DNA of 64,000 nt from assembly GCA_949130485.1 (NCBI GenBank), contig OX422195.1:622881-686880 (forward strand). The letters are read 5' to 3'. Numbering within the stretch: position 1 is the first letter of the stretch; the number at the start of each line of letters is the position of its first letter. This document shows positions 1,882 to 64,000 of the stretch, in pieces. The notes beneath the pieces are model-generated. The model was not told where the DNA came from and searched no databases. It saw nothing but the letters and a program-made list of their open reading frames with translations. Origin of the DNA: Agelas oroides (Eukaryota; Porifera; Demospongiae; Agelasida; Agelasidae). Made by a program: the position numbers and the translations under genes.

Positions 1882-2296
1882 TAGCCTCGTTCCCAGGCTG
1901 TTCCCGCCTCCAGTTTTTGATCGCTTCCAGTATAAAAACGGAGGGGGAAGGCCTGGGAGAAAGAGTCACGTGCGTGACGTCAGGTAGACGTGAGGGTAGA
2001 CGTGAGGGGGGCGGTGCCCGACGAAGAATCTCGAGGTCCTTCTTGTAATATCTTGTCCAAGAACTTGAGACTGTAACATTCGAAAGACAGCGTCAATACA
2101 GCTCGTTGTATGGTAGACTCGAGGCTGATCAACGCAAAGTTTGTGAATTACAACGATCGGGCACCGACCCCCTCATGTCTACCCTCACGTCTACCTGATG
2201 TCACGCACGTCACTCTTTCTCCCAGGCCTTCCCCCTCCGTTTTTATACTGGAAGCGATCAAAAACTGGAGGCGGGAACAGCCTGGGAACGAGGCTA
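1882..2296. mobile_element. Long-armed foldback element, TAGCCTCGTTCCCAGGC family
   Basis: Two nearly identical inverted arms of about 140 bp (1882-2021 and 2158-2296) flank a core of about 135 bp. The tips are TAGCCTCGTTCCCAGGC and GCCTGGGAACGAGGCTA. This is the longest member of the short foldback family that recurs through the window. No ORF is seen. Confidence 0.85.
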
Positions 2297-2320
2297 ACTT
2301 ATTATGCTTTACAGTTCCAC

Positions 2321-2384
2321 TAGTCTCGTTCCCAGACCCTTGGTATGGTACACATACCGTACTGAGGGTCTGGGAACGAGACTA
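2321..2384. mobile_element. Short foldback element, TAGTCTCGTTCCCAGAC tips
   Basis: A 64-bp near-palindrome with tips TAGTCTCGTTCCCAGACCC and GGGTCTGGGAACGAGACTA around a short spacer. It is a minimal copy of the same family as 1882-2296. Confidence 0.75.
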
Positions 2385-2403
2385 CACCATCTATTATGCA
2401 TGA

Positions 2404-3209
2404 AGTTATGCTGTACACACATGGCTCCTTCTGTGTGCACTTGGAAGGGTGAGTGTGCTGTACACACATGGCTCCTTCTGTGTGCACTTGGAAGGGTGAG
2501 TGTGCTGTACACACATGGCTCCTTCTGTGTGCACTTGGAAGGGTGAGTGTGCTGTACACACATGGCTCCTTCTGTGTGCACTTGGAAGGGTGAGTGTGCT
2601 GTACACACATGGCTCCTTCTGTGTGCACTTGGAAGGGTGAGTGTGCTGTACACACATGGCTCCTTCTGTGTGCACTTGGAAGGGTGAGTGTGCTGTACAC
2701 ACATGGCTCCTTCTGTGTGCACTTGGAAGGGTGAGTGTGCTGTACACACATGGCTCCTTCTGTGTGCACTTGGAAGGGTGAGTGTGCTGTACACACATGG
2801 CTCCTTCTGTGTGCACTTGGAAGGGTGAGTGTGCTGTACACACATGGCTCCTTCTGTGTGCACTTGGAAGGGTGAGTGTGCTGTACACACATGGCTCCTT
2901 CTGTGTGCACTTGGAAGGGTGAGTGTGCTGTACACACATGGCTCCTTCTGTGTGCACTTGGAAGGGTGAGTGTGCTGTACACACATGGCTCCTTCTGTGT
3001 GCACTTGGAAGGGTGAGTGTGCTGTACACACATGGCTCCTTCTGTGTGCACTTGGAAGGGTGAGTGTGCTGTACACACATGGCTCCTTCTGTGTGCACTT
3101 GGAAGGGTGAGTGTGCTGTACACACATGGCTCCTTCTGTGTGCACTTGGAAGGGTGAGTGTGCTGTACACACATGGCTCCTTCTGTGTGCACTTGGAAGG
3201 GTGAGTGTG
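2404..3209. repeat. Homogeneous 47-bp minisatellite, about 17 copies
   Basis: The unit contains GTACACACATGGCTCCTTCT followed by a GTGTGCACTTGGAAGGGTGA block and is repeated head to tail with essentially no divergence. The unit length is not a multiple of three and the minus strand lacks stops in all three frames, which produces long overlapping open frames that are not genes. Confidence 0.9.
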
Positions 3210-3533
3210 CGAACCATTCTTACCTGAAGCCTCACTTCTTGGGTGAATTGTAATACACCTTGTGTGCCCAACTTAAATCCGATAAGGAAGGGTGTGTTAA
3301 TCGACCTAGTAGAGACACATTCCCTGCGGATGATTCACTACTAAACTCCCTGGTGAATCGTTCAGACTCCAGAGTTGAGTGCCAAGAGGGTGGCCGTGTT
3401 CCCCCCCCCCCCCCCCCCTCCCCCCTGCCCAGCTTTATTGCTTGTGGCCCCTGTGTGTCACTTGTAAGTAGTGGAATACTTGACTAGGAGCCTGGGATCG
3501 AAGCTAATTAAACTCCAATGGCTACAACCTCAA

Positions 3534-13816: not shown

Positions 13817-14369
13817 TACTTAGTGGCTCTGCAAATCCTGAGACTGTGCAAGCCTTCATGCAGCATTCCTTAGGTAGGTTTGAGTGCTTGTACAATTGTG
13901 TTTACAGTGTAATGCATTTCATTGTGCTGCATGTTGGTGTGGGATCCCAAAACTTGACTACCCGCTTTCTCAAGAAATATTTAATTTTGTGTTCCCAGAA
14001 CCTTGTTTGCTGGTTGTGAACAGTCCCTGGTACAGCCCATAACTTACAAGAAACCTCATAGTACTGCCCACTTTTGGGGAAACCCAGTGTGGTTTCTTTG
14101 AACTCTGGAAAATTGAGTGATAGGAAAAGAGACCACTTCACACGTATATTGTCACTATATAAGCCTAAATAGTCATGTTTGCATATTGGCCTTGTGGTTG
14201 ATGCTAAGGCATTAGCAATAACTAGACAACAATATACACTATTGTATGGAGACTCAACCCAACCTAAAAGCTGGGAAGAAGCCTGCATGGGAAAGGCTAG
14301 TTTATAGCTGAGTTGCATATAAAAGCATGAGCATATGCCAATCTTGATTTATCTTGCAGATGATTGACT

Positions 14370-15728
14370 ATGTCCAACAAGAAGCGAAAAGGGTTTAGAC
14401 GTTTGAAATCTCAGTCCAATGTCCATCAAGTTCAACCACAACCACGCCGTGATCCCAAGAGGAAGAAGTGGACTGATGAACAAATGAAGGCTGCAATGAA
14501 AAGTGTGGTAGATGACAGCCTCTCAGCAAACAGAGCTGCTGACCTCCACGGTGTCCCTCGATCTACATTGAAAGATCGTTTAAGCGGACGTGTCATACAT
14601 GGAACAAAACCTGGACCAAAGCCTTACCTAACAGTTGATGAAGAAGCCGAACTGTCGCAGCACCTCCTCCAGGCATCTGCAATGGGATTGGGGAAGACTC
14701 GCCGAGATGTGAAGTGCTTGGTAGAAGTGTGCATTAGGAAGAAGGGCACACTGAGGGGTTCTGCCGTTAGCAATGGATGGTGGGATAAGTTTCTCAAGAG
14801 AAATCCAATGCTAAGCCTTCGTTCAGGGGATTCGACCGCTGGAGTAAGAATGGACGCTATGAATGTTGAAAACATGAAAGAATACTTTGATTTGCTGAGA
14901 GAGGTTTATGATGAATATGAGTTCAACAGTCATCCTGAGTGCATCTATAACATGGATGAGACAGGAGTACCCTTAGAACCACGTCCACCTAAGGTCATTG
15001 CCAAGAGGGGGCAAAAAAAGATCCGATACCGAACGTCTGGGCAGAAAGCACAGATAACAGTCATTGGATGTGGCAGTGCAACCGGTCAAATAATCCCCCC
15101 CTTTATCATCTATGCTGCCAAGCAGTTAAACCCTTTGTGGATCCGAGACGAAGTGGGTGGTTCTCGGTATGCTGTTAGTGACAAAGGCTGGGTAGATCAG
15201 GAACTGTTCTACCTTTGGTTGAAGGAACACTTCCTTGAAAATGCTGCGTCACGACGCCCCCTTCTACTCTTGTTGGATGGTCACAGCTCGCATTTTGAGC
15301 CCCAATCTATTCAGTTTGCGAAAGAAAACGGAATTGTTATCTTTTGCCTTCCACCTCACACCACGCATGAGTGTCAGCCCCTTGATGTTGGTCTGTTTGG
15401 ACCCCTGAAGAGACACTGGCAGCAGGAATGCCATAAGTTCTATCAGAAGCACCCCAGTCTAGTCATTTCGAAGCTCAATTTCAACCTTGTATTTCGACAA
15501 GCTTGGCTCAATGCTGTATCCCCTGCAAACATTTGCGGAGGATTCAAAAAAGCTGGTGTGTATCCCTACAATCGCAATGCAGTGCTTACGCTTGAAAGTG
15601 GCTGCAACAATTCCAGTGAAAAAAGTGAAGAGAATGGTGCTGTGAGTGAAGATGGTCATAGTGAAGGTGAAGCCATTGTCTCTTTTTCTGTTGCTGTCAT
15701 CTGTCTTCTTTTCATCCCCATACACTAA
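14370..15728 (+). CDS. DDE_1 (pogo/Tigger-like) transposase
   Basis: About 450 residues in one long open frame. The N-terminus has a basic psq-type helix-turn-helix (RKKWTDEQMKAAM, then SANRAADLHGVPRSTLKDRL), followed by a CENP-B-like DNA-binding segment. The catalytic Asp triad is visible: YNMDETGV (Asp near 14955), LLLLDGHSSHF (near 15276) and CQPLDVGLFGPLK (near 15384), with 35 residues between the second and third Asp. This DDD layout fits pogo/Tigger/jerky transposases, which cut and paste DNA at TA sites. The open frame has a likely splice donor at about 15667 (AGTGAAG|GTGAAG), so the true product probably continues into downstream exons and the terminal hydrophobic tail before 15728 is intronic. 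No inactivating stop or frameshift is seen in the DDE domain. Confidence 0.85.
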   Translation: MSNKKRKGFRRLKSQSNVHQVQPQPRRDPKRKKWTDEQMKAAMKSVVDDSLSANRAADLHGVPRSTLKDRLSGRVIHGTKPGPKPYLTVDEEAELSQHLLQASAMGLGKTRRDVKCLVEVCIRKKGTLRGSAVSNGWWDKFLKRNPMLSLRSGDSTAGVRMDAMNVENMKEYFDLLREVYDEYEFNSHPECIYNMDETGVPLEPRPPKVIAKRGQKKIRYRTSGQKAQITVIGCGSATGQIIPPFIIYAAKQLNPLWIRDEVGGSRYAVSDKGWVDQELFYLWLKEHFLENAASRRPLLLLLDGHSSHFEPQSIQFAKENGIVIFCLPPHTTHECQPLDVGLFGPLKRHWQQECHKFYQKHPSLVISKLNFNLVFRQAWLNAVSPANICGGFKKAGVYPYNRNAVLTLESGCNNSSEKSEENGAVSEDGHSEGEAIVSFSVAVICLLFIPIH

Positions 15729-24000: not shown

Positions 24001-27000
24001 TTGGATGAACAGTGGAGTGTAACAAGCATAATATGTTATGTAAAAATTGAAAAAAAAAAAATAGTTTGCACAAAACTTACATGTGGTTTACACAAAATTA
24101 ATTCATAGTTTACTGTCTCAATGTGGTATAAATTGGATATATGATACCTATAATCAAAGTATAGGTAGTATATCCAATACTTCTACTCTCTTCTGTGTCA
24201 ACTTGATATACTATGTACACGAAGAGACACGTGTACAACATAGGTCTAACATGGTTGATTGTAACACCCATTCCTCAAATACCTTACTCATTATACAGCG
24301 GGATGTAATAATTATATAATGTTACACCCATGCAACCCCCCCCCCCCCCCCCCCCCCCCCCACACGTATGCATTGTGCAGTGTAACAACGTAATCCCCCC
24401 ACATACACCACACCCCCCACATGACATACAGCACTCTCCCACATGACATACACCACACTCCCCCACATGACATACAGCACTCTCCCACACACACATACCA
24501 CACTCCCCCACATGACCCCCACATGACATACAGCACTCCCCCACATGACATACACCACACTCCCCCACATGACATACAGCACTCTCCCACATGACATACA
24601 CCACACACCCCCACATGACATACACCACACACCCCCACATGACATACACCACACACCCCCACATGACATACAGCACTCTCCCACATGACATACACCACAC
24701 TCCCCCACATGACATACACCACACACCCCCACATGACATACACCACACACCCCCACATGACATACACCACACACCCCCACATGACATACAGCACTCTCCC
24801 ACATGACATACACCACACTCCCCCACATGACATACAGCACTCTCCCACATGACATACACCACACACCCCCACATGACATACAGCACTCTCTCACACACAC
24901 ACATACCACACTCCCCCACATGACATACAGCACTCTCCCACACACACATACCACACTCCCCCACATGACATACACCACACTCCCCCACATGACATACAGC
25001 ACTCTCCCACATGACATACAGCACTCTCCCACATGACATACAGCACTCCCCCACATGACATACACCACACTCCCCCACATGACATACAGCACTCCCCCAC
25101 ATGACATACAGCACTCTTACACATGACATACAGCACTCTCCCACATGACATACAGCACTCTCCCACACACACACACCAACTCAATGAAAATACCTCTCAA
25201 AAAGTGGGAATTGATCCAGATTTGGCTCCAGAATATCAACTTGGCTGTGGCCGTAATGCTGCAGTTGAGAATAAATTGTACGTAAGAATAAATTCCCATT
25301 TTGTGAGAAAAACAGCACCGTGCATCAGCACTGACACTGCCTACTAGTGGTAACGTCAAAGTTGATGTTCCGAGCACTTGGTTTAATTAGCCGAATGTGT
25401 GAAACCATTGTCTCATTCCCAAACCATGCAGCATCAGGAGACAGTATGAGGTTGGAACTAGTGGGTGGTGTACTGAAGAATGCTAAAGTGCACAGTGTGA
25501 ATGCTTTAAATAACAGTGGTCGCCACTTCCATAAACAGTGGTTAAAAAGATTAATACCTTCTGCTTACTCACTCTAACAACCCGCCTCAGCTAGCTCACT
25601 CTAACAACCCGCCTCAGCTAGAAATGTATGTTCTTGCGAGATCTGCATATTATACAATGCCGTGGTAGTTCGTAAGCTCCTGATGGAACTGAACAATGAA
25701 CACTTTGTTCACAGTTAAAGATATTTTAACCACAAGTCACTCAATTTTTATGCCACCTATACTTGAAGTATAGTGTGTTTATACAACATTACATCACTTT
25801 CTAAGTATTTCATTGGATGAACAGCAGAGTATAACGGGTCATATACTCCTGATATGTAAAAGTTGTAAATAATAGTTTGCACAAAACTTGCATGTTGTAC
25901 CAGAATAGTTTACACAAAATTAATTCATAGTTTACTGTATCAATATGGTAGAAATTGGCCTATACTACCTATACTCTGAGTATATCTGCGTTTGTACTCC
26001 GAGTAGTATATTATACTCTGAGTACATATTACTATATTTGAGACAGTAAACAGTTTGGTGTAAACTATTCTGTACATCATGCAAAGCTTGTGTAAACTAT
26101 TATATTACAGAGTCTACGTAAGGAACAAGACTCTTCTACTCGAAACGTTTACAAGGTGATACAATTTAGCATAACAGTAGTACACATCATGTGATAGTGT
26201 AATATATCGCTAACCTTCCACGTCACGATGAGTTCCAGCGGATGATTCAGTTACAGAAAGGGAGTATACCTGGTATTGTGTAACTGGTACCATTTTACCT
26301 TTCTCAGATTAAATGATACATCGTTTCAGATTAAATAATAAACACTGAATGAATGATCTACGTTTTAAATTTTACGCTACATGCACACAGCCATGGCAAC
26401 CCAGGCTCGTGGAAGGAAAGAGAAAATGAACTTGGGCACAAGGCTACATCAAAGAAGGCTTAAATTGTACGAGATATCGGATTGTAGAAGTACTGGTACT
26501 GTGCAAAGGAAGCTGGTTAGCGGACTGGGAATGAGCAGAAAATTAGTTCAAACCAATTCCAAACCATTCATATCTCTAGTATAGAGGATTGCGTCTATTG
26601 TTAAAAATAGTTACAATCAACTCACAACATCTACATAACAAGGTCACATGACATTGAAGTGGATCACATGATTGTTACTATAAATAGCACTCAATCCATG
26701 TGACATGATTTAAATATAGTAGCACTAACTGGGTGAAGGCATGGGTAGAGGTAGAGAGTCTGGTTTGGCGGGAAGAGGGTGAAACGTTTCCTGCCCTGCA
26801 GCTGCACAAAAAAGTTGTAGGTGCAGTCGTAGTGCGTGTGGGTCACGATGCCAGCACGACCTACCCACAGATTGATCTACGAGGGAGAAAGAACAGGATT
26901 AAACATGGTGTATAGCCTTGTTTCAAGGTCCCCATCAGCTTTTTATTGCTTGCAGTATGATAATCTGAAGTGGAACAGAAAGCTGGATAAAAGTCTGGGA

Positions 27001-31839: not shown

Positions 31840-33990
31840 ATGGATCACAGTGGCGATGGCGCTGAGCTCCAAAATAGCAGTATTGTGCGAGGTATTATCG
31901 TCCTACCGAGCGACAACGATAATCTCGCTCTGTGTGCCGCCATCACGGTCGCGATACAGATGACCTTCTACCTGTTTGCATGTTCATGCAAATCGGACAA
32001 GGTCACCGACTTTGCAGGAGCGTCGAACTTTGTAGTGTTGGCGTTGGCTACTTTTGTACTGAGCGGGGTAAGTAAATTAAACATTTAATAATATATTAAA
32101 ATGAATGAAGGAAATAATATCACGCCATAGAGTCGCAACAGGCTATATCTGTCATCTGACAGTTTTGTTAGTAAGATTACATAATACACCGGTTGTGTGG
32201 CAGAACATTTGTTGTTTGAAGTGGTGAACATGTATGGGAGAGAAATTAGTCTCGCAAGCCACACCTTCGCAGAGAGGAAGGGTCTGGTCACGTTGCAACC
32301 ATCAAGTTGTCGCCATGGCAGAAACTTGCTGTGACCAATGAGGTTTGCGCTCTTCATAGATTGCATCCGTTGTCATGGAGTAGCAATTACACCACAACAT
32401 CTTTGGCAAATGTCAGCATCTTATCATCTAACCGTGCTGTTTGATAATTGTGTCCCTCGGTGACAATTTGTCAGCTGCAGCGTGGCCAGACCCTCCATCT
32501 CTCTGCAAAGGGTGTGGCTTGCAAGACTAGGAGATAATTAGATCAGGTCTGGGTCATCTCTGGGCCTTTTTTTTTTTTTTTAAACAGACAGTGACACAAT
32601 GCACAAGAGAACAGACATTTAGTCTCGTGAGCCAGACCCAACAAACCCCAGCATGGATAACCTGTGCATGCAAGCAATCTGTGCTCAAATTGGGTCTGCC
32701 CTGTCTAGAGACAAGTTGCTTGGACGTATTTTTGAGTTCTGCCTATCTCTTTCTGGGTTTAGCCTCATTCCCAGGTCTTCCCAACGTCACGTTTCGACCG
32801 CTTAAAATGTATAAGCAATCAAAAACTGGTTAGTGGTGAGGCCTAGAACAAGGCTACCTTAAACTGGAGTCAGCCATGAGTACTCTGAGCGACTTTTTGC
32901 TCATTTCTTTCCGCAGACTAACAACATACGTCAGGTTGCGATCACCGTGCTGGTAACTCTCTGGGGTGCACGTCTAGCAGGGTACCTACTGATAAGGATC
33001 ATCAAGATCGGCAAAGACAAACGCTTTGATCAAATCCGAGGGAACCCCATCAAGTTTCTTGTCTTCTGGATATTCCAGATTGTTTGGGTCTATGTCGTCA
33101 GTTTGCCAGTGATTTTTATCAACTCTCCAGTTGCGCTACAGAGGGATATCAGTGTTACAGACATTGTGGGAGCAGTGATCTTCCTTCTCGGACTCCTCTA
33201 CGAGACGGTTGCAGATTACCAAAAGTTTATCTTCAAGACGTCTCCGGTGAACAAAGACAAGTGGTGTGATGTCGGCCTATGGAAGGTCTCCAGACATCCA
33301 AATTACTTGGGTGAGATTTGTGTCTGGTGGGGTGCGTTCATTGTCAGTTCGACGATCTTGGTTGCAGCCAAGTGGCTGGCTGTGGTTAGCCCCCTCTTTG
33401 TGATGTTGACTCTTATTTTCTTCACCGGGATCCCTCCTCTGGAGAGAAGTGCCGACAGGAAGTATGGCAAGTAAGTAAACGGTATTGGGGGGAATCTCCC
33501 GGCCAGCTCTGTTTGATCCTCCCACACTTCCATGTTAGCCATGTTCCCTGTACAGGCCTTCCCACCATCATCCACTATGATCACTGACTTGCAGTGAAAC
33601 AAACACACACAGTGTGGATCATTTTCAGTAACACAAACATTGTATTGAAGTGATTAGTGTTCTGGATGAGGTCTGCAGACAAGATCAGTTTGCAATCGGC
33701 TGGTCTCTCATTCTCAAACCTACCTGGTTTCCACTGCATTCACACTAATACTCTTCCACTTCCGTGTATTAAAAGTATAAATGGGGGGGGGGGGGGGGCT
33801 GGGAATGAGGCTACAATATAGCATGGTGGAAACAAGTCTGTATTTACACACACACACGCAAACACACACGCACGCATGCACGCACACACACACACACATG
33901 CACATGCACGCACACACACGCACACACACACACGCACACACACACACACACACACACATGCACATGCACACACACACACACACACACGCA

Positions 33991-34667: not shown

Positions 34668-37600
34668 TTACGCTGCTGTTTCTTCGTGTTTGGGTGGCGG
34701 TTGCATCTTTTGAGTCTTGGAGAGATAATCCGTGAACTCCTGGAAGGGAGATTTGCCAAGCTTCGTCTCTGGCCAGAGGTCAGGGGTTAGGTAGGTATAG
34801 GTACGTGCAATGGCAGCAAAGGTGGCCTTGGCTAGAGGACAGAGGGAGAGAGGACATGAACAGCTGCCATCATACTGCAGTGAACCCCCTAGGCTGGAAT
34901 AATTCAGAGGGGCTCAGGGTACCTAGACATGTCGGGTGACCTACCTAGACATGTTGGGTGACATACCTGGACACGTCAGGTGACATACCTGGACACGTCA
35001 GGTGACATACCTGGACACGTCAGGTGACATACAGTGGAACCAGCAAAGAGAGCAAAAAGTGCTTTTTTTGACTTTACAGGCTCATATTTTTAAAAGTAAA
35101 CATGACACAAGAAATACAAACACATTTTCATGATCTCCAGGAAAAACTGAGTAAGACGGGTAGGTGCAAAGGCATCATGTGACAGTCATGTGACAGTACA
35201 TGGCGGGGAAACAACCCTAGGTCAAAAAGTGACTTTTAGCATGGGATTTGTCAAGCATTGCAATTTAAGGTCCCAGACTACTGCCATTGGAATCTCACCC
35301 AGGTAAGGTCCCTTGAACCGCACAAAGTATTCTTAACTGTCAGCACTTTCAGAGAGCAGGGCCAAAGTAGCCATTTTTGAGCCCTCCAAGCGTTAAGCAT
35401 GGTATGCGTGCAAACATACGAGTTAAGGTCTGAACTTTCAGTTATCGAACACAAAGTCTTTATATTTTCAGGAACTAGTGACAGGGAACACTTCTCCGCG
35501 GCCAAATCCGAGAAACGCAGCCTTGTGAGCGCGAACGCGACTTTTCGACGGCCATCTTGCTGTTTTGTGACGTAGGGCTTGTCACGCGAAATAATACTAA
35601 ACGTAACGAGGTCACGTGTATCGTTATTAACAATGGCGACTAACCGTGTGCTGTTGGCGTTCTTTACCTGTCACTGCCAGGGGGTAAAGTTTTATGACTT
35701 GGCAGAGGTAGGCGCTAGGCAGGGGAGCAAAGTCAGATTCGTCAGGGACCCTGGCAATCCCTATGACACCAACTGTGTCGAAGTGTGGCTGTGTGAGGAT
35801 GGTAGGAGGCAGAAGTTGGGGCATGCGGCTAAGGAAGCAGCAGAGTGGCTTTCTCCGATGCTTCTGAAAAGAACCGGTGGGTAGTGAAGAATTCGAAGTA
35901 TTCATCGATAGCCAGCGCTCGAACACGAAAGATCTAGCATTACGTAATCGTATGTCGTGACGTCACAATCGCGATTATCTTAAGTACAGTGGTAACGCAG
36001 TAGCGCTAAAATGGCCGTCAAAAAGTCGCGTTCGCGCTCACAAGGCTGCGTTTCTCGGATTTGGCCGCGGAGAAGTGTTCCCTGTCACTAGTTCCTGAAA
36101 ATATAAAGACTTTGTGTTCGATAACTGAAAGTTCAGACCTTAACTCGTATGTTTGCACGCATACCATGCTAAACGCTTGGAGGGCTCAAAAATGGCTACT
36201 TTGGCCCTGCTCTCTGAAAGTGCTGACAGTTAAGAATACTTTGTGCAGTTCAAGGGACCTTACCTGGGTGAGATTCCAATAGCAGTAGTTTGGGACCTTA
36301 AATTGCAACGCTTGACAAATCCCATGCTAAAAGTCACTTTTTGACCTAGGGTTGTTTCCCCGCCATGTACTGTCACATGACTGTCACATGATGCCTTTGC
36401 ACCTACCCGTCTTACTCAGTTTTTCCTGGAGATCATGAAAATGTGTTTGTATTTCTTGTGTCATGTTTACTTTTAAAAATATGAGCCTGTAAAGTCAAAA
36501 AAAAGCACTTTTTGCTCTCTTTGCTGGTTCCACTGTACCTGGACACGTCAGGTGACATACCTAGAAATGTCAGGTGACATACCTAGACAAGTTAGGTGAC
36601 CTACCTAGACAAGTCAGGTGACCTACCTAGACATGTCGGGTGACCTACCTAGACAAGTTAGGTGACCTACCTAGACATGTCGGGTGACCTACCTAGACGC
36701 GTCAGGTGACCTACCTAGACAAGTCAGGTGACCTACCTAGATGTGTCAGGTGACCTACCTAGACAAGTCAGGTGACCTACCTAGACACGTCAGGTGACAT
36801 ACCTAGATGTGTCAGGTGACCTACCTAGACAAGTCAGGTGACCTACCTAGACAAGTCAGGTGACCTACCTAGACATGTCGGGTGACCTACCTAGACAAGT
36901 CAGGTGACCTACCTAGACATGTCGGGTGACCTACCTAGACAAGTCAGGTGACCTACCTTGATGTGTCAGGTGACCTACCTAGACAAGTCAGGTGACCTAC
37001 CTAGATGTGTCAGGTGACCTACCTAGACAAGTCAGGTGACCTACCTAGACACGTCAGGTGACATACCTAGATGTGTCAGGTGACCTACCTAGACAAGTCA
37101 GGTGACCTACCTAGACACGTCAGGTGACATACCTAGATGTGTCAGGTGATATAATACTAACGTCTGTCCTGAGACAATAGCTAGGTAACAGAGCTGGTAT
37201 ATATCACTGTACATGGACCAACAAACATGAGAACTACTGGTGTACAGGTGGACCCTTCTTAAAAGACACCCTTGAATTAAGGACACCCCACTAACCACGA
37301 CAAACACTTGCTCCCAAGGGTCTCCACCTGCTTACCAAAGTTTCCTAGGGTGGCTGTCTGTCCACGAGCACAGGTATAGCAGTCAGATACCCCTGCCATT
37401 TGCATCAGCTTCTTGGGCACGGCTGCAGCCACAATGCTAGTACCACGTGGCGCAGGGATGAGACGAACCAACACACTGCCACACTTGCCTGTCACCTTGG
37501 AAGGGGAGGAGAGAAAGGGAGGGGAAGTGGAAGAATATGATGTCATAACAGATCAGCAAAGCGGACAACTATGAGTACTAAGCTGTTGTTTGAGATAGCT

Positions 37601-38552
37601 TCGTTCCCAGGTCCCTCCCCAGCTTTTGTCACATAATAATTTAATGGAGGTTGTAAGGAGTTGAAGAGAAATGTACCTGGGAACGAAGCTAAGGCAGATA
37701 GCGTCATCTCACCTTGCAGGGAACGGTGTGGGGTTGACCGATCTTATTACCCCAGTAGCCCAGGCGAACAGGAATAACAGACAACTTTGCTAGCACAATA
37801 GCCCCCCTGATAGCAGTGGCCACTTCCTTAGAGCACTTTACCCCCAGCCCCACGTGACCGTTGAAATCCCCCATTGCAACAAAGGCCTTGAACCTGGTCC
37901 TCTGTCCGGCTCGTGTCTGCTTCTGTACAGGCATGATCTTCAGAACCTCGTCTTTGAGTACTCCCCCTCCCAGAAAGTGATCGATGATCTCCGCCTCCTT
38001 GATGGGGATGGAGAAGAGGTAAATGTCCTCCAGACGTTTGATTTTACCGTCCTTCACAAGACGTCCCAGCTTGGTCACAGGGATCCACTGCAAGAAGTGA
38101 GATTCAAAGTTAACAGAATACTACATGTATCACAAACAGACTGCATTATGACACACTTGTTATAAGGTCACGCCTTTAAGTGGCAATTATTCATACATTT
38201 TCAAGTGGCGTCCCTTGTTGAGATAGAACTGTATTGCACTCTATGGCAATATACTGGTTTGTATATAGCATGAGCTATCTCATGCAGTTCCCTCAATTAG
38301 CAATAAAAGTCTATAAATTTTCGGGTAAACTATGTTCGATGTGGACAGTGTTAAAAAAAACCCACCATCATTTCAATCGTGCATTCACACTAGTAGTAAC
38401 AATCTTCCCGAAAGAGTATTCCTACTAATTTAGCTCACCTCCTTATCCTCTGGCTTCCCCCTCCCTCTCCCTCGTCCCCTCCCCCTGCGGCCCCCACGAC
38501 CCCTCCCACGCCCAAACCCACCTCGACCACCGGCTGATCCTCTGTCTGCCAT
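34668..38552 (-). CDS. RPS2: 40S ribosomal protein S2 (uS5)
   Basis: Exons 38552-38439, 38087-37713, 37495-37336 and 34831-34668 join in frame to 270 residues. The N-terminus is the eukaryote-specific Gly/Arg repeat ([20 protein letters not shown]). The S5 N-terminal double-stranded RNA-binding domain follows ([57 protein letters not shown]), then the S5 C-terminal domain ([40 protein letters not shown]), and the end [20 protein letters not shown]. It is part of the small subunit near the mRNA entry channel and decoding site. The length is close to the animal norm (about 290). The last intron (34832-37335, 2.5 kb) is occupied by a minisatellite and a foldback transposon, unusually long for a ribosomal protein gene in this neighbourhood. 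Divergent from DNAI2. Confidence 0.97.
35032..36535 (+). mobile_element. Foldback DNA transposon carrying a HIRAN-domain ORF
   Basis: Two inverted arms of about 520 bp (35032-35553 and about 36012-36535) are roughly 95% identical by eye. They start CAGTGGAACCAGCAAAGAGA and end in the reverse complement, and are flanked by TA on both sides (35030-35031, 36536-36537). The first ten bases, CAGTGGAACC, resemble ends of pogo/Tigger elements. The unique centre (about 460 bp) contains the HIRAN ORF at 35633-35884. No transposase is present, so it is non-autonomous in its current form. It is inserted in a minisatellite in the last RPS2 intron. Confidence 0.85.
35633..35884 (+). CDS. Stand-alone HIRAN-domain protein inside the foldback element
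   Basis: 83 residues from ATG 35633. Nearly the whole protein is one HIRAN domain: [11 protein letters not shown] at the start, the signature [20 protein letters not shown], then [25 protein letters not shown] domains (as in HLTF) bind DNA 3' ends and are usually fused to helicases or nucleases; here it stands alone. ATG 35633 was chosen because the domain begins right after it, though the frame is open upstream to 35579. A GT donor at the very end (GGTGG|GTAGTG) would allow splicing into the right arm, whose outward frame (near 36061-36282) is also open. Whether the ORF is expressed is unknown. Confidence 0.75.
   Translation: MATNRVLLAFFTCHCQGVKFYDLAEVGARQGSKVRFVRDPGNPYDTNCVEVWLCEDGRRQKLGHAAKEAAEWLSPMLLKRTGG
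37596..37691. mobile_element. Foldback element, TAGCTTCGTTCCCAGG family
   Basis: Tips are TAGCTTCGTTCCCAGGT and ACCTGGGAACGAAGCTA. It lies in the RPS2 intron between exons 2 and 3, ending 22 bp before exon 2's donor. Confidence 0.7.
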
Positions 38553-39170
38553 TGCTGGATAAGAAAATAAAACAAAACGCAGATCATAACCATCAGAATT
38601 TACAAACACCATTTGCCTGCGAAAATTAGGAACATCCCAACTGCTTTTCATAAGCACACCCTGTTACTCTAATACACACGCCCCAAATACATATCTATGC
38701 AAAATAAGCCATATCCAATCCCACAGTAGGCATGCCGTACGCTAAAATTCAGGAACATGTATGATGCTAGCAGATTACTTTCTTACGTGGATATTCGCTC
38801 CTTCTTCAACCACGCGACTGTGCAATGGAAGCGTGCGTTCTGCGCATGCGTAATTGGCTGCCGCTGGCACAACAACCAGCTCCACCCCCTAACGACAATA
38901 AAATGGCGCTCGATAAACAGTGATCCAGCTGCTCTTGCCAAGCTCAGAGATCTTCACTGCAACCTAACATTGGAATTACAGTAAGTGTCTGGATTAGCAT
39001 ATGAGGCTGGCATGTGTACCCCATTGCACCGTTTGTAGTGTAATCATGGAGAAATAGCTATGGGCGCTATCTAATACACCTCGGGCCAATGCCATGATAC
39101 CATAAGGCTATTTTATAAAGGCATTGATCTAAAAACCTCTTTGCTGTACAGGGATATATTGTGGACAGAA
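38553..39170. promoter_or_regulatory. Divergent promoter region, RPS2 / DNAI2
   Basis: 618 bp between the divergent start codons. An NRF-1-like site TGCGCATGCG (38841-38850) is followed by an ATTGG (inverted CCAAT) box at 38853. No TATA box is obvious. A possible 5' UTR exon for DNAI2 could end at ATTACA|GTAAGT near 38981. Confidence 0.5.
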
Positions 39171-61141: not shown

Positions 61142-64000
61142 ATGTCGTCAAAGTTTGCCTACAAGGTATGAACCAGCAAGAAAATTATGCTCCAAGATGG
61201 GTGTGCACAATACGGCACGTATTTTTGTGAATCTACACCTGTAGTTCTCCAATCTGTGCGGTGCTGTGTACAAGCAAGGGAACATAGCCTTCACTAGTGA
61301 TGGTAACAGCGTTCTGAGCCCCGTTGGAAACAGAATATCACAGTTTGACCTCAAGAAGTGAGCAAGACATTTACAGTAGTGTACAGTCTCATTCCCAGAC
61401 CAGTGGAAAGGTGTATGGGAATGAGACAAGGCAACTAGAGCATGAAGCATCATTCCTAGGCCTTTGATACTGTCCAGGGAAGGCCTGAGAGCTAAGCTAA
61501 ATTTCATGAATTAACTAATAATTTCTGTATGGAACTGCTACAGATTGAACCTCTGTGTGTAACTTAGGAGGGAGGAAGTATGGCTAGATGATGCAGTTTT
61601 AAGCAGCGATGTATAGCGGAGAAAGAACAAGGGGTAGTTATATGTCCCGTGTAGAAGCATTTGCGACCGGGATCAAAATTGAATCAAGTGATCAAAGCCC
61701 TTTTTTGGGGGACGATCAAGGGATCAAGGTGACCTCCAAACTGCTAAAATCAACGGATCAAGAATGCAGCTCCAATTTGACCTTTGACCCCTGAAAATCA
61801 AGCAATCAAGTGATTAAGCACATTTTTTGCCGATCAAGAACTAGATCACAGTCGCAAACGCTTCTACAGGTGACATATAATAAGTGACTACCCCTTGCTG
61901 ATGCAGTCTTAAGCAGCAGTGTATAGCGGAGACATGTAATGTACGTATCACTGTTATGTCCCACCCTCCCAGGTTGGTGGTGGGTGGGGATTTTGAAGGG
62001 GGTTTGACTCTAGCAGCATGCCCTTTGGGAGGGGCATTTGCCTTATGTGGAGGATTTTTACTGCACATTTACACATTTGTGTAGTACTGATTTGACGAAA
62101 GAAACTGCCCCTGTAGAAGGGACTTAGATAATTGCCCTGTTCAAATCCCCTATTACACCCCACCTTCTACCAACCTGGGAGGGTGGGGCATAACAGTGAT
62201 AGCTGCATAACTGTTGTGGAATTTGCAGTAGAACCCATGCAGATACCCTTGCAGTTGAGACCAGTCCTGTTTCCTTGTTTCAGGGGAAGAATGTAGCGTT
62301 AGAGAGAGTCTGTCAAGTGTTCTGCATTCTTAGTTCAGGGCTATCCTTAAAGGGGGGCTCCACTGTATGCATGTTGTCTGTTTCTTGTCTTGTCCCATGC
62401 ATGCTCTGATAGCAACAAGTCCTTCACCTTCCCCTTTGAGAACCGGAAGAATATCCATCGGTTTGCTGTCTCTCCCAATGGATTGCTGATGATCACAGTG
62501 GACGAAGGTCAGCGGAACAGTACTACCACAACTGTTCTATTGTCCTTGATTGGGACAAGATCGAGGCTGGGCAAGCTTTCCATAGGTGCTGGATCGTATC
62601 AAGCCCATGTGTCTGTCTGTCTGCTCGCAACAGGATTCCGTAAATATTCCAATTCTCAATTTACAAGGAATAATCAGTTGGAATTCGGCTGAGGCCTCTA
62701 GGCAATGCTGCTTATGTAGCTTGTCTTCCGCTTCTCTGCCAGGGGTCCAAGTGGCATAATGGTAAGAGCGTCTGACTAGTATTCAGAAGGTCTTGGGCTT
62801 GAATCCCAGCTGGATCCCGGATTTTTTACCGTGGATTTGTTTCTCGCTCTCTCAGCAAAACATCATTATTCATGAGCGCTTACTGTCGTTACCAGTAAAT
62901 AACATCAAACCTCAAGGAACTAAGTTAAATACCCAACCTGCAGCGGTACATATAAAGCACATGTAAGGTTTTAGGAACAGTCATTGAAGTTGACTATATT
63001 CGAGCTACTGCATTAGGTACAATGTCCTGCATTCTTAGCTCTTGTTAATAACGTATCACTACTGATGGTTTATCTCCATTCTTGAATTGTATTGTGTCAT
63101 GTTTTTTCCTCACTGGCTATCTCAGATGGTAGGGCGCTGCTGGTGAATCTGCACAAGAAGGTGGTCTTACACCACTTCAACTTCAAGCAGCCAGTGCGTG
63201 ACATCAAGTACAGTCCCAATGGCAGGTCAGTCCCAATGGCAGGTCAGCCCCAATGGCAGGTCAGTCCCAATGGCAGGTCAGTCCAATACCAGGTCAGTCC
63301 ATTGGCTGGTCAGTCCAATGGCAGGTCAGTCCAATGGCAGGTCAGTCCCAATGGCAGGTCAGTCCATTGGCAGGTCAGTCCCAATGGCAGGTCAGTCCAA
63401 TGGCAGGTCAGTCCAATATGGCAGGTCGGTCCAATGGCAGATCAGTCCAATGACAGGTCTGTCCAATGCCAGGTCAGTCCCAATGGCAGGTCAGTCCAAT
63501 GGCAGGTCAGTCCAATGCCAGGTCAGTCCCAATGGCAGGTCAGTCCAATGGCAGGTCAGTCCATTGGCAGGTCAGTCCCAATGGCAGGTCAGTCCAATGG
63601 CAGGTCAGTCCAATGCCAGGTCAGTCCCAATGGCAGGTCAGTCCATTGGCAGGTCAGTCCCAATGGCAGGTCAGTCCAATGCCAGGTCAGTCCAATGGCA
63701 GGTCAATCCCAATGGCAGCTGCCAGGTTAGTCTCGTCCCCAGACCTAATTTTTCGTGCGCGCCCTGCGGACTCGTGGAAAAATAGGGTCTGGACACTTTC
63801 ACTACGAAAACTGGGGCAAGTTTACATACAGCGGTTGGTAAATTGAGTAATTGTAGGTGTTAATTACATTATCAGCTACCTGCACCGTTTGCTTTGGCGC
63901 CAAAAAATTTGCAAGCTGGCTATTTGTGATGACCCATAACGCAATTTACTTTACCTGAACAATCTGATTGGTGCGACAACATGCCAATACGCTCATATGA
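61142..64000 (+). CDS. PWP2: Periodic tryptophan protein 2 (5' exons; continues past window)
   Basis: Exons 61142-61165, 61245-61357, 62413-62507 and 63126-63225 are in the window and join in frame; the rest lies beyond 64000. The encoded start MSSKFAYK|FSNLCGAVYKQG, then IAFTSDGNSVLSPVGNRISQ, FAVSPNGLLMITVDEG and VLHHFNFKQPVRDIKYSPNG, matches the first WD40 blades of PWP2. PWP2 is part of the UTP-B subcomplex of the small-subunit processome and is needed for 18S rRNA maturation in the nucleolus. The donor of the fourth exon (GGCAG|GTCAGT) is the first unit of a minisatellite. The intron at 61358-62412 contains two MITEs. Confidence 0.92.
61384..61427. mobile_element. Short foldback element, CAGTCTCATTCCCAGAC family
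   Basis: CAGTCTCATTCCCAGACC opposes ATGGGAATGAGACAAG in PWP2 intron 2. Confidence 0.55.
61626..61898. mobile_element. MITE related to 52623-52878, between short direct repeats
   Basis: AACAAGGGGTAGTTATATG opposes ATAATAAGTGACTACCCCTT, with AGAAGCATTTGCGA and TCGCAAACGCTTCT further inward. Near-direct copies of TTAAGCAGCGATGTATAGCG lie at about 61600 and 61910, so a longer host or element segment is duplicated around it. Confidence 0.6.
61948..62199. mobile_element. MITE, TCACTGTTATGTCCCACCCT tips
   Basis: TCACTGTTATGTCCCACCCT and CCAGGTTGGT at the left mirror ACCAACCTGG and AGGGTGGGGCATAACAGTGA at the right. It lies in PWP2 intron 2. Confidence 0.8.
62744..62817 (+). tRNA. tRNA-Thr(AGT)-like sequence, possibly a SINE head or pseudogene
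   Basis: A-box-like TGGCATAATGG and B-box-like GGGCTTGAATCCC are present. The anticodon arm is perfect (TCTGA, loop CTAGTAT, TCAGA) with anticodon AGT, the T-arm pairs, and the acceptor stem (GGTCCAA with CTGGATC) pairs except at one position. A TTTTTT terminator follows at 62822. The D-stem is weak and C56 of the T-loop is replaced by T, so a pseudogene or tRNA-derived repeat is as likely as a functional gene. Plus strand, within PWP2 intron 3. Confidence 0.4.
63210..63723 (+). repeat. Minisatellite made of PWP2 splice-donor units
   Basis: About 31 copies of CCAATGGCAGGTCAGTC (16-18 bp, variants with ATTGGCAGG or ATGCCAGG). The first unit spans the end of PWP2 exon 4 and its donor, GGCAG|GTCAGT, so almost every unit carries a consensus-like 5' splice site. 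Confidence 0.9.

Follow-up and report, generated by a model that had tools for sequence, protein, structure and literature searches.

Element in the window and its insertion site

The window, which is the whole 64,000-nucleotide stretch of Agelas oroides DNA analysed, holds a mobile element with TA on each side, long inverted arms, and an open reading frame of 83 residues between the arms (35633-35884, plus strand). An earlier note on this DNA had described a TA-flanked element of about 1.5 kb with inverted arms of about 520 bp, and the element agrees with this in its structure, flanks, and arm length (527-528 bp; Table 1). The arm identity of about 95% given there is too low, as the arms are 98-99% identical: of 528 aligned columns, 6 are mismatches and 2 are gap positions. 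A 22-bp tandem repeat surrounds the element, with about five copies at 34920-35032 and about 28 copies at 36536-37149. When both flanks are joined with one TA, the repeat register is restored, and the element was thus inserted into an intact site. Exons which we take to resemble ribosomal protein S2 (37704-38657, minus strand) and a DUF1295-type reductase (32947-33474, plus strand) lie on opposite sides of the element. Elsewhere in the window, a 454-aa open frame with Pfam DDE_1 and HTH_psq domains (14364-15728, plus strand) is read as a putative pogo-like transposase of another DNA transposon. Open frames at 2309-3271, 24284-25174, and 63092-63785 are translations of tandem repeats and unlikely to be genes.

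The 83-residue frame scored 39.9 bits against Pfam HIRAN (cut-off 24.7, E 3.8e-10) and covers profile positions 9-67 of 96. It also matches the HIRAN chains of human HLTF in PDB, with 5bnh as the best match (E 0.0019). The AlphaFold model had pLDDT of 59 at first, and of 78 with a deeper alignment, in which three strands and a helix were predicted. The HIRAN assignment of the earlier note thus passes the profile check proposed there, with a score above the curated cut-off; the frame is a truncated exon and not a whole gene.

Table 1. Features of the element in the window and of the two genes of the parent copy L009
Feature	Sequence	Position	Strand	Remark
Left TA target-site duplication	Window	35030..35031	.	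Joined flanks restore 22-bp repeat register
Mobile element	Window	35032-36535		1,504 bp, TA on both sides
Left terminal inverted repeat, about 527 bp	Window	35032..35558	+	Begins CAGTGGAACC
HIRAN-encoding exon 1, start codon to deletion joint	Window	35633..35866	+	Pfam PF08797 above cut-off
Deletion joint	Window	35862..35866	+	5-bp microhomology TTCTG, present at both parental break points
Out-of-gene ORF tail (KRTGG, stop)	Window	35867..35884	+	Antisense through start of transposase gene, by comparison with L009
Transposase 5'-end remnant, 20 codons	Window	35867..35926	-	First ATG of the parent is GTG here
Right terminal inverted repeat, about 528 bp	Window	36008..36535	-	
Right TA target-site duplication	Window	36536..36537	.	
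HIRAN gene, 194 aa	L009	Exons 1602-1855, 1913-2072, 2138-2308	+	GT/AG introns by eye
Transposase gene, 614 aa	L009	2547-4391	-	

Short copies and their parent element

The source genome (259 Mb in 141 contigs) was searched with the window element, and 79 pieces matched. Ten near-full-length short copies, including that of the window, are listed as 99-100% identical, and the element is therefore not a chance arrangement. The first sign of a real element gene named in the earlier note, multiple TA-flanked copies with an intact frame, is seen in most of them: TA is present on both sides in nine of the ten, with L023, whose left end is changed, as the exception, and the frame is kept in nine, with a frameshift in L008. 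When longer elements are counted in, TA was found on both sides in 13 of 15 copies examined (nine short copies, L009 to L011, and L012); besides L023, the exception is L019, the left end of which is missing.

In L009 and L010, segments 1-835 and 828-1504 of the window element lie on either side of about 2.5 kb of additional sequence; in L011, the arrangement is present in rearranged form. L009 and L010 are 4.0 kb long, have both genes open, and differ by 23 substitutions and 30 gap positions. Their termini are CAGTG with TA duplications, and they are full-length relatives with a transposase gene, for which the earlier note had proposed to look. In L009, the HIRAN gene and the transposase gene converge, and 238 bp separate their stop codons. 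L011 keeps HIRAN exon 1 and a transposase frame; it is without about element positions 1154-1710, which hold the greater part of HIRAN exon 3, and it has an interrupted left arm.

In the short copies, parent positions of about 831-835 and 3,327-3,331 are fused at TTCTG. HIRAN exon 1 was fused by this deletion to the start of the transposase gene, so the frame in the window encodes a truncated domain. A deletion at microhomology took out HIRAN exons 2 and 3 together with nearly all of the transposase gene, and the short copies were then mobilised, presumably by the transposase of the parents. The start codons of the HIRAN and transposase genes lie 74 and 81 bp, respectively, inside of the near-identical arms, with the result that deletions leaving the ends intact leave the opening part of each gene in place as well. 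This shows how short derivatives bearing a domain come about, with the ends retained and, by geometry alone, the first exon of each gene. Judged by these comparisons, the window element is a non-autonomous internal-deletion copy of a two-gene DNA transposon of IS630/Tc1-mariner type, and not a foldback transposon with HIRAN as its only cargo, as had been proposed.

HIRAN gene in lineages A to E

Five lineages of longer elements were defined in the genome by HMM searches and are designated here A to E, letters used in this analysis only. The search with HIRAN exons gave 43 matches in 40 places, and that with the transposase gave 78 matches in 45 places, both being lower bounds. Eleven of the 40 HIRAN places are within 4 kb of a transposase, in all five lineages, where 0.06 would be expected by chance, and all 11 pairs are convergent (tail-to-tail). 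Short copies of A, short derivatives of D, and fragments are among the remaining 29 HIRAN places. Thirty-four of the 45 transposase places are without a HIRAN match within 4 kb; at three of these that were inspected (L030, L033, and L034), no HIRAN was found.

The spliced HIRAN proteins predicted for L009 (family A) and L012 (family B) reached 33.4 and 47.1 bits, respectively, against Pfam HIRAN (gathering score 24.7). The family B gene has introns at the same positions as in A and the same PDISIDELFAC tail. The family B element of L012 (1644-3452 and 3662-4306) has an open HIRAN gene and one in-frame stop in its transposase. Arms are about 530 bp in L009, L010, and L012. The lineage D element at L026 (2439-7048) starts and stops with TACAGTGCTACACAGCAAGAGAGTAGATTTT, about 30 bp, and the ends of L024 from lineage C are related to it, with 3 mismatches in 20. 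As the inverted repeats of lineage D are short, the HIRAN gene is independent of long arms. A tie of HIRAN to long arms only is thereby rejected, and the role on hairpin arms suggested in the earlier note is weakened. In five derivatives of D, about 1.1-1.2 kb long (L037, L039, L040, L042, and L043), the transposase side is joined inside HIRAN exon 1. Short elements retaining a cut HIRAN exon thus arose separately in two lineages, and this points to geometry and not to cargo.

Selection on the HIRAN gene

Nine replacement and no silent substitutions from the consensus were counted in the frames of the ten short copies. L007 and L022 are close kin, only 3 differences apart, and have one replacement in common, so at most eight changes are separate. 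With about 77% of sites being replacement sites, nine of nine replacements have P = 0.095 without selection and 0.0003 at dN/dS of 0.2; for eight of eight the values are about 0.12 and 0.0007, respectively. From this ratio, there is no detectable purifying selection on the truncated frame, and the numbers are small. HIRAN as a working cargo of the short element was rejected on the truncated exon, the substitution counts, and the frameshift.

Between families A and B, the complete HIRAN gene has dN 0.288, dS 1.41, and dN/dS 0.204 (codon bootstrap 0.09-0.33), with synonymous sites near saturation. The ratio is 0.089 (0-0.25) in exon 1 and 0.41 (0.16-0.91) in exon 2 alone; that of the transposase, for comparison, is 0.073 (0-0.113). 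Replacement divergence is lower than silent divergence in every pair printed, with silent sites often saturated between lineages. Pairs within lineages have weaker ratios of 0.29-0.84, which might fit many copies being dead. The HIRAN gene of complete elements is therefore, by its substitution pattern, conserved under purifying selection between the two families. The dN/dS below 1 named for HIRAN in the earlier note as a sign of a real element gene is found at this level and not among the short copies.

Conservation of HLTF residues

Positions of HLTF were mapped by counting along the 5bnh alignment from Y72, Y93, and N90/N91, as numbered in the available text of PMC4666394 and PMC11237066. 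Residues were counted in 120 HIRAN homologues with gapped cells set aside. The equivalent of R71 is K in 113 of 115 and that of Y72 is F in 113 of 117, while D94 is D in 117 of 120 and H110 is H in 104 of 115. The equivalents of Y73 and G109 are Y and G, each in 104-117 sequences. In place of Y93, the second base-stacking residue of HLTF, H, K, or R is found in 97 of 120. N90 has a variable equivalent, and the equivalents of N91 and K113 are kept only in part, as N in 74 of 120 and as K in 58 of 114, respectively. Given this variation, DNA binding may differ or be lost.

Transposase and its phylogeny

The catalytic triad of the L009 transposase is D331, D424, and E536, with spacings of 92 and 111 (DD111E), and it is invariant across 21 aligned sequences. 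Pfam HTH_33 and DDE_3 matches in L009 are below cut-off. Among six relatives scanned, DDE_3 is above cut-off in two (P0056 and P0111) and below in the other four, and HTH_33 reaches cut-off in two. NCBIfam IS630 was matched with E 1e-10 in the relative P0028, under the curated cut-off, and with 0.0043 in L009. The TA duplication and the DDE/D triad of IS630/DDE_3 type are both characters of the IS630-Tc1-mariner group.

In a midpoint-rooted tree of 35 transposase rows, those of C, D (L025), and E being less than half filled, all seven HIRAN-linked rows were classified in one group of 24 rows (100/100). L033 and L034, without HIRAN found, are in the other group of 11 rows. L030, where a stretch of 8 kb showed no HIRAN, falls within lineage D. 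The HIRAN label therefore needs two changes on the tree, a result equalled in 153 of 500 shuffles.

Relatives outside the genome

A profile search revealed 194 HIRAN relatives on outside contigs, and 209 relatives of the transposase were found, 120 of each being listed. At least five longest-contig sizes are common to the listed HIRAN and transposase relatives (2,364; 3,798; 8,041; 524,245; and 1,863,786, of which the last two exceed 500 kb). Shifted controls gave a mean of 0.33 (maximum 3), and of 0.0017 for sizes over 50 kb. Linkage by equal contig sizes is indirect and gives no distance, and small sizes can coincide. The outside protein P0126, on a 2.5-Mb contig, matches HIRAN exon 1 of L012 without a difference across all 80 residues of the query; it either comes from another assembly of the same species or reflects a recent transfer.

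A scan of bacterial and archaeal genomes gave two contigs with a transposase match. L044, which is catalogued as belonging to a symbiont of a poecilosclerid sponge, carries a transposase 47% identical, with TACAGTG upstream; the match in L045 is weak and broken (34%). No HIRAN was recognised in either: the best profile hit had E 0.018 and is inside the transposase region of L044, which stops 377 bp past the transposase match, where at most the third HIRAN exon could show, and tblastn on L045 gave E 0.41 over 12 residues only. In IMG/VR scans, no relative was confirmed for the transposase (8 stretches) or for HIRAN (132 stretches).

Possible role of the HIRAN protein

According to excerpts of the published accounts, transposons of the IS630-Tc1-mariner group usually carry one ORF, the transposase (PMC8533490), and some pogo elements have two (PMC7386202). 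No title or abstract opening among the papers listed in the literature searches mentions a eukaryotic transposon with a HIRAN gene. The main finding is a parent with two genes, together with the HIRAN accessory gene conserved in its relatives.

We consider it probable that the parent is a two-gene transposon with a selected HIRAN accessory protein acting at the DNA ends of transposition, and that the window copy is its deletion derivative. In the parent, the DD111E transposase reads inward from one end and the HIRAN gene, presumably spliced and translated, from the other. The HIRAN protein may bind the free 3' ends produced by transposase cleavage and hold or shield them. Alternatively, it may keep a host end-binding remodeller resembling HLTF off the cut ends. 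Integration and repair of the donor gap would then go in favour of the transposon. The HIRAN domain of HLTF is reported to bind the 3'-OH at an ssDNA end, and the isolated domain to inhibit HLTF-driven removal of Cas9 from cut ends (both in the available part of PMC11237066). Transposon ends might be protected from a remodeller of the host by a free HIRAN protein in an analogous way. It is a good deal more doubtful whether a widespread eukaryotic clade of IS630 type requires its own 3'-end-binding HIRAN protein, capping or channelling cut ends or blocking HLTF-like remodellers; if true, HIRAN would be a transposon-encoded antagonist of DNA-end processing.

An unlikely explanation, still well ahead of those that follow, is that HIRAN serves the transposon away from cut ends as a regulator, for instance by repressing the activity or expression of the transposase or by coupling transposition to replication forks. 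It would suit the partial loss of the end-stacking and neighbouring residues of HLTF, and in one study the HLTF HIRAN domain preferred fork-like junctions over 3' ends (PMC4666394, in excerpt). Bacterial HIRAN-HipA pairs, predicted antitoxins in the available text of PMC11706625, indicate that HIRAN proteins can partner another protein, and with both start codons so near to almost identical arms, the two genes may share control sequences. Against it, the basic, aromatic, and Asp/His positions of the signature are conserved in most homologues, and no result here favours regulation over end binding.

That the HIRAN frame represents a piece of host sequence captured and carried along by chance, functionless in all copies, is very improbable. 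The short copies alone, with their nine replacements, no silent change, and one frameshift, look as they would without constraint, but the gene is retained at the same convergent position in longer elements of five lineages, its introns match between families A and B, and it has 194 relatives outside the genome. For complete elements, a functionless fragment was rejected on the ratio between families and on the convergent linkage. Least probable of all is a foldback element whose working cargo is a stand-alone HIRAN domain, perhaps binding its own hairpin arms. The long arms and the open frame of the window copy, a frame kept in nine of ten short copies, speak for it; the frame is nevertheless a truncated exon that runs on into transposase sequence in antisense, with no detectable selection among the short copies, and lineage D has HIRAN with repeats of about 30 bp and short derivatives in which HIRAN is cut even earlier.

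With an accessory protein at the DNA ends as the preferred reading, the conserved second gene suggests that some transposons encode part of their own end handling or a counter to end processing by the host. The pairing of HIRAN with a transposase may be useful for genome-engineering transposases.

Comparison with known systems

The HIRAN domain here and that of HLTF (PDB 5bnh) are both HIRAN by Pfam and by sequence. The equivalents of R/K71, aromatic 72, Y73, D94, G109, and H110 are retained in most homologues, whereas Y93 and N90 are not kept in most, and N91 and K113 in part. In HLTF the domain is part of a multidomain translocase; here it stands alone.

Among transposons, Sailor (DD82E; range DD78-111E) is similar in having a transposase of IS630 type with a long D-E spacer, as described in the available text of PMC8533490, from which all Sailor characters are taken. 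The spacer of 111 is at the top of the published Sailor range. The HCELNPIE-like motif of Sailor at the catalytic E resembles HCELSAIE in L009 and HCELNPIE in its relatives, and Sailor inverted repeats vary up to more than 1 kb, comparable to the long arms here. One full-length sponge member, 4,115 bp long, is given in Table 1 of that paper. The target-site duplication of Sailor is predominantly TATA, in contrast to TA only here; its termini are usually GT/CC instead of CAGTG, and its motif at the first Asp is I/VVYLDET instead of VVHDEST. A second gene such as the HIRAN gene is not mentioned for Sailor in that text.

Elements of the Tc1/mariner superfamily have the TA duplication, inverted ends, and an IS630-related DDE transposase in common with those described here. 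Their spacing is DD34-41 D/E (PMC8533490, same text) as against 111, and the spliced HIRAN gene is an additional difference. The pogo superfamily, in the available part of PMC7386202, belongs to the IS630-Tc1-mariner group, has mostly TA duplications and one or two ORFs, and in some members very long inverted repeats of 392-856 bp, as here, but its signature is DD29-56D and not DD111E. KolobokP and KolobokD (PMC9587614, in excerpt) are likewise eukaryotic DNA transposons carrying a gene for another DNA-acting protein; they belong to the Kolobok superfamily and have nucleases as accessory proteins, whereas the transposase here is of IS630 type and the accessory protein is HIRAN.
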